Shown here: piece after piece, positions 9,710 through 63,690 of the stretch
Numbering within the stretch: the first letter of the stretch is position 1
How the letters are laid out: every line of letters starts with the position of its first letter
Position numbers and translations under genes: made by a program
The notes under the pieces: generated by a model
What the model was told of the DNA's origin: nothing
Databases searched by the model: none
What the model saw: only the letters and a program-made list of their open reading frames with translations
Source of the DNA: Methanorbis rubei
GTDB taxonomy: Archaea; Halobacteriota; Methanomicrobia; Methanomicrobiales; Methanocorpusculaceae
Assembly: GCF_032714495.1 (NCBI RefSeq)
Contig: NZ_JAWDKB010000004.1
Span: forward strand, 124,001 to 188,000
DNA length: 64,000 nucleotides
Direction of reading: 5' to 3'

Positions 9710-9750
9710 GAAAATAATTTTTCAAAATTTTTTTTTAAATTTTTTTCATG

Positions 9751-9856
9751 GGAGTTACACGATGTGATTTTTCGACATGTGATTTTGTTTAGAATAATCA
9801 CAGTGAGGTCAGGGACAAAAAATCTCAAACGATGAAATTCATCATCGCGTAACTCC
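9751..9856. mobile_element. palindromic element A1 (short copy)
   Basis: 106-base element with terminal inverted repeats GGAGTTACACGATG and CATCGCGTAACTCC. Its right half (GTGAGGTCAGG, then AAATCTCAAACGATGAA and CATCATCG) matches the reversed left end of copy A2. It lacks the CACGGA core. Flanks read TTCA|T...A|TTCA, consistent with a small target duplication. It sits between trxB and ndk. Confidence 0.7.
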
Positions 9857-9910
9857 TATTCAAAAAAAACTTTTCAAAAAAAATTGATCGGAAAAATATT
9901 TCCGGGAACT

Positions 9911-20794: not shown

Positions 20795-20889
20795 ACAGCC
20801 CACGGAAATATTTCTGATACATCATATCAAACTCCAGAATGAAAATGGAATTGGTATTTGATGTTCATTCCAAACGAATTATTTTCAAA

Positions 20890-20956
20890 TTCCGTGTTGT
20901 TCACGTCTGCTCCGTGATGTTTTTTATTTCAGTGTGTTCGGTTTTTCCGTGGGCGG
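20890..20956 (+). repeat. palindromic element B1, right half only
   Basis: TTCCGTG, GTTCACGTCTGCTCCGTGATG, a T-rich stretch, GTGTGTTCGG and TTTTTCCGTGGGCGG, nearly identical to the right arm of copies B2 and B4. No left arm is visible, so this is a partial copy between rnhB and the protease gene. Confidence 0.65.
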
Positions 20957-37664: not shown

Positions 37665-37993
37665 ATAGGAGTTACGCGGTGATGAGCTTCATCGTTTGAG
37701 ATTTTTTCGTCCTTGACCTCACTTAGAGTAACCACGGAATGCACAGACCACACAGAGCTTCACGGAAAAATGAGTCACATACCTTTGGCCTGCTCATTGC
37801 TTCGCACGCAGTTCCGTCTTGCTCACTGTTTCGCAGCTTCGCAAAAATGCACGGAGAACGCCTGCGGCGCCGGAATGCACGGAATATATTTTTCATATTT
37901 TAAGAGAATAAATTATCTCGGAAATCTTTCCGTACATTCCGTGGTTATTTCAGGCAAAACCATACGTCACAGAACCACACCGCGTAACTCCTA
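37665..37993. mobile_element. palindromic element A2
   Basis: Ends are TAGGAGTTACGCGGTG and CACCGCGTAACTCCTA (perfect inverted termini). Flanks read TTCAA on both sides, a likely five-base target duplication. The interior contains CACGGA-type units (CCACGGAATGCACAG, TGCACGGAGAACGCCTGCGG) and GCTTCGC-rich modules; the right inner arm is short. The element ends directly at the stop codon of the small membrane protein at 37995. Confidence 0.75.
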
Positions 37994-42487: not shown

Positions 42488-42660
42488 TTTTTTTTCTTGC
42501 AGTGGCTTTGTCCGCGAGGTTCTGTCTCCCACGGAAAAACAAGACGCACGCCGTTCCGTCGTACTCACTGCTTCGCAGGAACACACGGAAATTTTACAGA
42601 AAAAAACATCACGGAGCAGACGTGAACATCACGGAAATTTTTCGTCAATTTTTTTCTGAT

Positions 42661-43003
42661 AGGAGTTCCGCGGTGATGAGTTTCATCGTTTGAGATTTTT
42701 CTGTAAGTGGTCTCGCTTGGAGTAACCACGGAACACACTGAACACACGGAATTCCACGGAAAAAACACAGAATACCGCTTCGCTTACGAAAAACACGGAA
42801 AGCCTAAGGAAGTCGGCATCTCAAAATGGAGACCTATACGCATACCAGTACTCTTAGTCTTTCCGTGTTTTCCGTAAGCGAAGCGGTATTCTGTGTTTTT
42901 TTCCGTGGAATTCCGTGTGTTCAGTGTGTTCCGTGGTTGCCCCAAATAAAACCAAGGACAGAGAATCCCTTTTCCTTATGTTATTTCATACCGCGTAAGT
43001 CCT
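42661..43003. mobile_element. palindromic element A3 with about 87-base foldback stem
   Basis: Ends AGGAGTTCCGCGGTGATG and CCGCGTAAGTCCT. Flanking TTCTGA occurs on both sides (before TAGGAG and after CCTA), a six-base target duplication. Core arms 42722-42808 and 42853-42940 are almost perfect reverse complements (two mismatches, one T bulge) around a 44-base loop; they carry ACCACGGAACACACTG, AACACACGGAATTCCACGGA and ACAGAATACCGCTTCGCTTA. Confidence 0.8.
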
Positions 43004-43016
43004 ATTCTGAAAATAT

Positions 43017-43152
43017 TTTCAAAAGAAAATTAATTTTTTATTGGCGTCACATTTTTTTAAATTTCGTGACGATAATTTTTCTTCACGATTTTTTTTCAAA
43101 AGAAAATGAATTAATTTTTTCAGCGTCACATTTTTTTAAAATTCCGTGATGT
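43017..43152 (+). repeat. direct repeat of about 57 bases
   Basis: TTTTCAAAAGAAAATTAATT, a short gap, GGCGTCACATTTTTTTAAA and TTCGTGACG at 43017-43072 recur with small changes at about 43093-43152. Each copy ends CGTGA, the second merging with the B2 right arm. Origin unknown. Confidence 0.5.
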
Positions 43153-43289
43153 TCACGTCTGCTCCGTGATGTTTTTTTTTCTGTAAAATTTCTGTGTGTT
43201 CCGCTTTTCCGTGGGCGGCAGAAGATCATAAAGAAACCATCCAAAGTTTAATACGTTCTCTCGTGGGAGATACGTAGTAGTGATCTCCG

Positions 43290-48554: not shown

Positions 48555-49254
48555 AGGAGTTATGCGGTGTGATTCTGATCTATAGGGCTTTGCTTTGAGT
48601 AACCACGGAATGCACAGAGCACACAGAGCTTCACGGAAAATTTCATAAAATGCACGGAGAACGCCTGCGGCGCCGGAATGCACGGAAAGATTTTCGAGGA
48701 AATTTATTTCTCATAGGAGTTACGCGGTGATGAGTTTCGTTGCGGATTTTTCTGTAGGTGGTCTCGCTTGGAGTAACCACGTATCGCATGCCTTTGGCCT
48801 GCTCACCGCTTCGCGGGAACACACTGAACACACGAAATTCCACGGAAAAAACACAGAATACCGCTTCGCTTACGGAAAACACAGAAAGCCTAAGGAAATT
48901 GGCATTTCAAAGTGGTGACATCTACACATATCCGTACACTTAGGCTTTCCGTGTTTTCCGTAAACGAAGCGGTATTCTGTGTTTTTTCCGTGGAATTCCG
49001 TGTGTTCAGTGTGTTCCGTGGTTACCCCAAACAAAACCAAGGACAGAGAATCCCTTTTCCTTATGCTATTTCATACCGCGTAAGCCCTATTCTCAATTAT
49101 TTTTCCAATAAAGTTACGCTGTGTGATTCCGCGAAGTGGTGTAGATCTCAAAAAATCAAAAATATATTCCGTGCATTCTGGCGCCGCAGGCGTTCTCCGT
49201 GCATTTTTGTTTTCCGTGAAACTCCGTGTGCTCTGTGCATTCTGTGGTTACTCC
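48555..49254. mobile_element. composite palindromic region, outer arms
   Basis: Outer left end AGGAGTTATGCGGTGTG at 48555. Outer foldback arms: 48597-48687 (GAGTAACCACGGAATGCACA, GAGCACACAGAGCTTCACGG, TGCACGGAGAACGCCTGCGG, CGCCGGAATGCACGGAA) and about 49166-49254 (reverse complement with few mismatches and a small bulge). A second degenerate left end AAGTTACGCTGTGTG lies at 49111. The loop between the arms contains the complete element A4. Confidence 0.7.
48715..49089. mobile_element. palindromic element A4, nested in another copy
   Basis: Ends TAGGAGTTACGCGGTGATG and ATACCGCGTAAGCCCTA, flanked on both sides by TTCTCA, a six-base target duplication. Core arms about 48822-48895 and 48939-49015 share with A3 the segments ACACACTGAACACACG, AATTCCACGGAAAAAACAC and AATACCGCTTCGCTTACGGA. 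An extra module CATGCCTTTGGCCTGCTCAC plus CGCTTCGCGGGAA is inserted in the left arm. Confidence 0.8.
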
Positions 49255-49297
49255 AAGAAAAATTATTTTGAAAAAAAAATTTTCAAATAAAAAAAGA

Positions 49298-61812: not shown

Positions 61813-61889
61813 CTTTTTTTTTTGAAAATTTCGGCTTTGATCATAGATTCGTTTATTGGCAAACACTATTTGGTATTGTTTGTTGCTTC

Positions 61890-62112
61890 GCCCACGACTC
61901 GCATGCCTTCGACCTGCTCACTGCTTCGCAGGAAAAAAACGGACCACACGGATATTTTGCAGAAAAAAACATCACGGAGCAGACGTGAACATCACGGAAA
62001 TGAATTGTTTTTGGGTTCTGTGTTGTTCACGCCTCTCAGTGATTTTTTAATATCTGTGTCTTCCTGCGAAGCAGTAAGCAGGCTAAAGGCATGCGTTCCG
62101 TTTTTCCGTGGG
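61890..62112. mobile_element. palindromic element B3
   Basis: Left arm: GCCCACGACTCGCATGCC, CTGCTCACTGCTTCGCAGG, ACGGACCACACGGATATT, AACATCACGGAGCAGACGTG, AACATCACGGAA. Right arm: GTTGTTCACGCC, TTCCTGCGAAGCAGTAAGCAGG, AAAGGCATGCG, TTTTTCCGTGGGAGGC. Most of the left arm can pair with the right; it lies 80 bases after the Agl23-like gene. Confidence 0.65.
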
Positions 62113-62173
62113 AGGCGGGAGTTAATGGGCAACGCCGAAAATTTTATGCGAAAATATTTCTGCACACTCACGT

Positions 62174-62441
62174 GGAGTAACCACAGAATGCACGGAAATA
62201 TCACGGAGTTTCACAGAAAAAATCGCATGCCTTAGGCCTGCTCACCGCTTCGCAGAAATGCACGGAGAACGCCTGCGGCGCCGGAATGCACGAAAAATTT
62301 CCGAGATAATTTATTCTCTTTTATTCTCTCAAAATATGAAAAATATATTTCGTGCATTCCCGCAAAGCGGTGAACAGGCCGCAGGTGTTCTCCGTGCATT
62401 CAGTGATGTTCTGTCTGCTCTGTGCATTTCGTGGTTACTTC
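62174..62441. repeat. palindromic CACGGA element A5 (core only)
   Basis: Arms begin GAGTAACCACAGAATGCACG (62174) and end GTGCATTTCGTGGTTACTTC (62441). The left arm contains TGCACGGAGAACGCCTGCGG and CGCCGGAATGCACG, the right arm CGTGCATTCCCGCAAAGCGG and GTTCTCCGTGCATTC. The terminal TAGGAGTTACG repeats are not visible, so it is a core without ends. Confidence 0.65.
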
Positions 62442-62504
62442 ACATGAGACCAGAGACAGCTAAATCCTCACATTCAAATTTTTGCAGGTCGATGTAGTAC
62501 CACA

Positions 62505-63446: not shown

Positions 63447-63462
63447 GAGGAGGCCGCACTTC

Positions 63463-63624
63463 AGCCCACGGACCACACGGACCACACGGATATTTCACAG
63501 AAAAACATCACGGAGCAGACAAGAACGTCACAGAAATATTGTTTCGAGTGTGAGTTCCGTGATTTTCTCGTCTGCTCCGTGATATTTTTCTGTGAAATTC
63601 CGTGTGTTCCGTTTTTCCGTGGGC
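63463..63624. mobile_element. palindromic element B4 (complete)
   Basis: 162 bases bounded by GCCCACGGA and TCCGTGGGC. Left arm: CCACACGGACCACACGG, ATATTTCACAGAAAAACATC, ACGGAGCAGAC, AACGTCACAGAA. Right arm: TTCCGTGATTTTCTCGTC, TGCTCCGTGATATTTTTC, TGTGAAATTCCGTG, TTTTTCCGTGGGC. The best preserved B copy, starting 17 bases after the pheA stop. Confidence 0.75.
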
Positions 63625-63690
63625 GACTCAGAGAGAAGCAACCAAGCAAGTAAGATTATGATTTCATCCTTCCAACATATCCACAATATT

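Follow-up and report, generated by a model that had tools for sequence, protein, structure and literature searches.

A CACGGA hairpin of Methanorbis rubei as a probable gene-less cassette of GxxExxY mobile elements inside an IS701-type MITE

Introduction

A long and nearly perfect hairpin made of CACGGA units in the 1.83-Mb, 15-contig genome of Methanorbis rubei (G000) raises the question of whether such a palindrome is kept by selection, for instance as an RNA, or has been recently made. The window analysed here is the whole stretch of 64,000 nucleotides that contains it. CACGGA was present 80 times in the window compared with 33 expected (2.4-fold; the largest count among 100 shuffles was 47), and the units were clustered.

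Results

Re-alignment placed the left arm of the hairpin at 42724-42808 (85 nt, forward strand), the loop at 42809-42852 (44 nt) and the right arm at 42853-42938 (86 nt, reverse strand). The alignment and the unit positions define the left arm as an array of CACGGA, CACTGA and CACAGA units, from which the right arm differs by two mismatches and one 1-nt bulge, as first described. A second copy has arms of 79 nt at 48816-48894 and 48939-49017 which are 96% complementary. In the copies of this kind (type II; L001-L046 and the window loop), the 44-nt loop was present in either orientation about equally (11:12), as if it was frequently inverted. Additional modules, among them CGCATGCCTTCGGCCTGCTCACCGCTTCGCGGG and AACGCCTGCGGCGCCGG, lie between CACGGA units at 48775-48815, 61899-61934 and 62224-62280 in the window, and in L019.

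The hairpin forms the core of an IS701-type MITE of 345 bp on the forward strand (42660-43004). The 16-bp inverted ends of this element, TAGGAGTTCCGCGGTG at 42660-42675 on the forward strand, paired with TACCGCGTAAGTCCTA at 42989-43004 on the reverse strand, have the pattern TAGGA(G/C)TTACGCGGTG, of which approximately 133 instances were counted in the genome at up to 3 mismatches, compared with 1 for the reversed pattern. A TTCTGA target-site duplication flanks the element on the forward strand (42654-42659 and 43005-43010). In the nearest relative (G018), the orthologous intergenic region, identified next to a neighbouring protein with 95% identity, has a single TTCTGA and lacks the MITE. 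The suggestion of a recent origin is thereby supported, as the hairpin lies in an element which is bounded by a 6-bp target duplication and which the closest relative lacks at the orthologous site. Many other copies of the MITE are flanked by direct repeats of 5-7 bp (TTCTGA, TTCGAA, TTGGAA, TCGTGA and others).

An element of 1103 bp in G018 (L307:1201-2303) has ends identical to those of the MITE, a TTTTA duplication and broken frames of an IS701-family transposase. The transposase fragment scored 212 bits against NF049921, lower than the 250-bit cut-off for full-length proteins because the gene is broken, and this decayed insertion sequence is likely the parent of the MITE family. Paired multi-copy ends, a target duplication with an empty site, and ends common to an IS701-coding element were all found, as expected for an IS701-family MITE. 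One perfect end, TAGGACTTACGCGGTG, at position 3051 of L306 (G014:C10), lies about 640 bp from a DDE_Tnp_1 transposase gene; a left end to match it was not found.

Three further MITEs of the family were located in the window, all on the forward strand. The element at 48714-49089 (duplication TTCTCA) carries the second copy of the hairpin and is itself inside a further CACGGA palindrome, with arms at 48589-48640 and 49210-49261. The element at 37666-37993 (duplication TTCAA) has a core with AACCACGGAATGCAC ends. The third, 110 bp in length (9749-9858), has no CACGGA hairpin core; it may have arisen by deletion and so need not represent the state before insertion. Elsewhere the same ends enclose other cores, CACGGATTC in L213 and CACGAACC in L218-L221. 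As the same ends enclose different cores or none, the hairpin is a separable cassette. In the MITEs of L218-L221, a CACGAACCACACGAA palindrome lies near one end, acquired separately from the CACGGA core.

The MITE interrupts an outer, older CACGGA palindrome of a second type (type I; approximately 42527-43216), with arms at 42578-42640 and 43138-43202 and with ends of the form [T/G]CC-CACGG...CCGTG-GGC. This outer palindrome is common to M. rubei and G018, and is absent in G001, G004, G005 and G008. Type I is typified by the sequence GCTCCGCCCACGGAAAAACGGAACACACGGAG..., and dozens of gene-less copies are present in the M. rubei genome. Within the window, type I palindromes also lie between two genes at 20798-20954 (left half degraded), at 61889-62113 (partly degraded; G018 lacks this region after the orthologous gene) and at 63464-63624 (arms 63492-63535 and 63555-63598; G018 has no such palindrome before the orthologous downstream gene). 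No clean empty site was found for type I palindromes between M. rubei and G018, the compared sites being in rearranged or diverged regions at synteny breaks, so the clean empty site is evidence for the MITE and not for the type I palindrome. The palindrome-bearing intergenic regions 61831-62458 and 63447-63628 are both located at gene-order breaks relative to G018 and G004. A block resembling TTTGCCCATAAATTCGTTTATTGGCAA was present on one side of many type I elements (L194, L195, L197, L199, L203, L208, L211, and 61830-61885 in the window), and may be a favoured target or another repeat.

Genes of the GxxExxY family (PF13366, PDDEXK_3) were present in 16 of the 25 genomes of the genus. The sole GxxExxY gene of M. 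rubei (L062) has AACCACGGAATGCACGGAAATTTCACGG on one side and its mirror image on the other, and a GxxExxY gene of G018 (L056) is enclosed by type I arms. Gene-bearing elements with shared arms were thus found for both palindromes, in the same genome for the AACCACGG ends and in G018 for the GCCCACGG ends. This arrangement of gene and arrays recurs elsewhere in the genus with CGCGAA or CGCTAA units. The search for proteins that go with the CACGGA unit, suggested in the original prediction, led in this way to the GxxExxY family, which may bind it.

A genome-wide scan returned 543 GxxExxY relatives, and the flanks were analysed for the best-scoring 80, from about 18 phyla, a sample which is biased to relatives of the query because it was chosen by score. 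An array was defined as at least 2 units in the correct orientation within 250 bp of the gene. For these best 80 of 543 loci, such arrays were present upstream of 59 of 76 genes and downstream of 69 of 80, compared with wrong-strand arrays at 12/76 and 16/80 and with arrays in 15 of 286 strand-windows (approximately 5%) in a distal control. Genes of the four-helix-bundle family PF05635 from 30 of the same genomes, considered as alternative cargo, were rejected, with arrays at only 0/30 and 1/30.

The recurrence of the unit in unrelated genomes was evident, since exact triple CACGRA arrays were present in 28 of 30 searched bacterial genomes holding GxxExxY genes, with controls near zero. The bacterial maximum was in Desulforhopalus vacuolatus (G059, locus L105), whose 261 exact triple CACGRA arrays comprise at least two unit types and frequently form inverted pairs a short distance apart. 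Among 119 archaeal genomes, a strong GxxExxY gene was present in 11, of which 4 had exact triples of the CACGRA flavour, the only one searched for, compared with 3 of the 108 without such a gene. The link is weaker here, in part owing to the use of different units, for example CGCGAA, in other lineages. No GxxExxY match was found in phage records, and only 8 plasmid records matched. In the literature covered, which excludes most subscription journals, GxxExxY is mentioned in passing, and no flanking repeats or gene-less copies were described.

The M. rubei protein and its relatives scored far above the TIGR04256 and PF13366 cut-offs (139.9 bits for PF13366). The AlphaFold2 model of the protein (pLDDT 95) has a PD-(D/E)XK nuclease fold, with Cas4 SSO0001 as the best match (Foldseek E 8e-4, Z 9.5), followed by R.SwaI (Z 8.1); the Z of 6-7 against Hjc resolvase chains is in a range where common folds also match. 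The D...ExK motif is conserved, with no variation at D71, E81 or K83 across the genus set (alignment A1). GxxExxY is accordingly a predicted PD-(D/E)XK nuclease. A search of PDB sequences with the GxxExxY profile gave no credible relative (best E 0.025), and the NCBIfam entry for the family gives no function.

Fifty compact gene-bearing elements were delimited, with lengths of 424-607 bp (median 456). In gene-bearing elements the units were spaced by 9 bp in 228 intervals and by 10 bp in 32, which is tighter than the 8-12 bases first noted. The base preceding the terminal CCACG varied among elements but matched between the two ends of 49 of the 50, compared with 23 by chance. Similarity between elements stops beyond position -3, and no target duplication above that in shuffles was detected at the gene-bearing elements.

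Both features of the ends followed the protein tree. The terminal base required 5 changes compared with 16.2 when shuffled, and the unit type 18 compared with 37.9 (17 compared with 26.6 with the genus left out); these shuffles ignore relatedness, but the tree does not sort by host phylum, as 11 changes are needed for its 11 planctomycete rows. The proteins of all six T-type elements form a single related group, and their bacterial hosts differ. The simplest reading of this co-variation is that the GxxExxY protein would recognise the ends of its own element. The agreement of the terminal base with the protein tree led us to discard a 4-bp palindromic target as the source of the matching terminal bases. 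Near-identical gene-bearing copies are present at unrelated sites: Methanocella paludicola (G086) has two copies with 98.6% identity over 644 bp and three with 90-95% identity over approximately 770 bp, in each case with unrelated flanks.

GxxExxY might alternatively be a passenger, with the arrays recognised by some other transposase and the nuclease carried as cargo, for example as a defence gene. The excess of gene-less palindromes over genes in M. rubei (dozens to one), the lack of a known mechanism by which this nuclease alone would transpose DNA, and a weak PADLOC match are in its favour. However, GxxExxY is the gene between the ends in the 50 compact elements, its phylogeny is tracked by unit type and terminal base, and the other small mobile-looking gene family of the same genomes is unflanked. 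This alternative is on balance improbable.

Selective maintenance of the hairpin as a structure in RNA or DNA, whether as a terminator of transcription, a stabiliser of mRNA or a processed hairpin RNA, was assessed on the differences between arms. The predicted fold is very stable (RNA minimum free energy of -155.9 kcal/mol compared with -52.3 +/- 4.7 in shuffles, z = -22), the copies in the window are intergenic, and in some copies (L004, L006, L011, L014) changes or deletions in one arm are matched in the other. Arm differences within a copy were 4.2% compared with 5.1% for random pairing in type II (p = 0.0002), and 9.9% compared with 11.1% in type I (p = 0.007). This excess of within-copy similarity is small, some clearly matched changes standing beside many unmatched ones. 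The implied selection for pairing is not supported, as many mispairs are uncompensated, G-T mispairs (17) are not in excess of A-C mispairs (24), and the loop orientation is random (11:12). An Rfam scan of the window gave no match, and the nearest relative lacks the hairpin at the orthologous site. The similarity of the arms would be explained better by template switching or recombination between arms than by selection for pairing, and a selected structure is very unlikely. The initial interpretation is thus supported in part, for the recent origin of the hairpin but not for the implied selection of an RNA hairpin. That the hairpin is the mere interior of an ordinary IS701 MITE, unrelated to GxxExxY, is more improbable still. 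The element has all the hallmarks of a MITE and a parent insertion sequence, but its ends are also found around other cores or none, type I CACGGA palindromes occur without MITE ends, and the enclosure of a GxxExxY gene by the same arms in the same genome refutes the restriction to a MITE.

Discussion

The hairpin is a nest of mobile DNA, a gene-less cassette within a second small mobile element. We consider it probable (roughly 0.7) that the cassette, which is carried in the IS701-type MITE, belongs to the GxxExxY family of mobile elements, moved by a nuclease that would recognise the end arrays. The gene-bearing form of such an element consists of a variable base pair plus C, about three CACGRA-like units every 9-10 bp, the GxxExxY gene and the mirrored units. 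The nuclease would recognise the unit arrays at both ends and cut there, and cutting would move its own element as well as gene-less copies with matching ends. A cassette with AACCACGG ends, as found around the single GxxExxY gene of M. rubei, is carried inside the MITE. On its later insertion the MITE duplicated TTCTGA and split an older palindrome with GCCCACGG ends, which belongs to a second family of GxxExxY type with a gene-bearing copy in G018.

The palindromes of the window are gene-less derivatives of GxxExxY elements, and a recent MITE insertion brought one palindromic cassette of GxxExxY type into another. The MITE with its target duplication, empty site and parent insertion sequence, the linkage of arrays to the gene and the co-variation of arrays with protein lineages were each observed directly. 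From the sequence comparisons, the GxxExxY protein would bind and cut the arrays and so drive mobility, and the hairpin itself probably has no host function.

A broader proposal, for which we see about even chances, is that a PD-(D/E)XK nuclease of 120-150 residues is alone the mobility enzyme of self-spreading elements across bacteria and archaea, with ends of about three CACGRA-like units of 9-10 bp, and that these elements are the source of widespread orphan intergenic repeats. The CACGGA and CACGAA arrays, intergenic in many phyla, gain a testable origin as the ends of an element with one nuclease gene, and GxxExxY, a little-studied family, gains a testable function. If the nuclease is sufficient, it would represent a new enzymatic solution for moving DNA.

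Compared with known systems, the MITE resembles IS701 insertion sequences and their MITEs in its TAGGA(G/C)TTACGCGGTG ends, direct target duplication and multi-copy gene-less derivatives, and differs in having as its core a palindromic CACGGA cassette that stems from a different family of elements. The M. rubei protein fits the GxxExxY family (TIGR04256 / PF13366 PDDEXK_3), which is annotated without a function. The Rpn/YhgA-like nucleases, once labelled transposases and linked to horizontal transfer (PMC5350276), offer a further comparison. The closest parallel in layout is the REP/RAYT system (BIME/REPIN), in which a single small nuclease gene lies between inverted palindromic repeats, many gene-less intergenic copies are present in the genomes carrying the gene, repeats and protein co-evolve, and no target duplication is seen (PMC2817692). 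RAYTs are tyrosine transposases (Y1, IS200/IS605-like; PMC2817692), whereas GxxExxY is a predicted PD-(D/E)XK nuclease, and so the GxxExxY system is not a member of REP/RAYT. The repeats also differ, with about three units of 9-10 bp in the arrays compared with a hairpin of 20-40 bp in REP. Taken together, the link of arrays and nuclease points to a mode of spread like that of REP/RAYT, but with an enzyme of unrelated origin.
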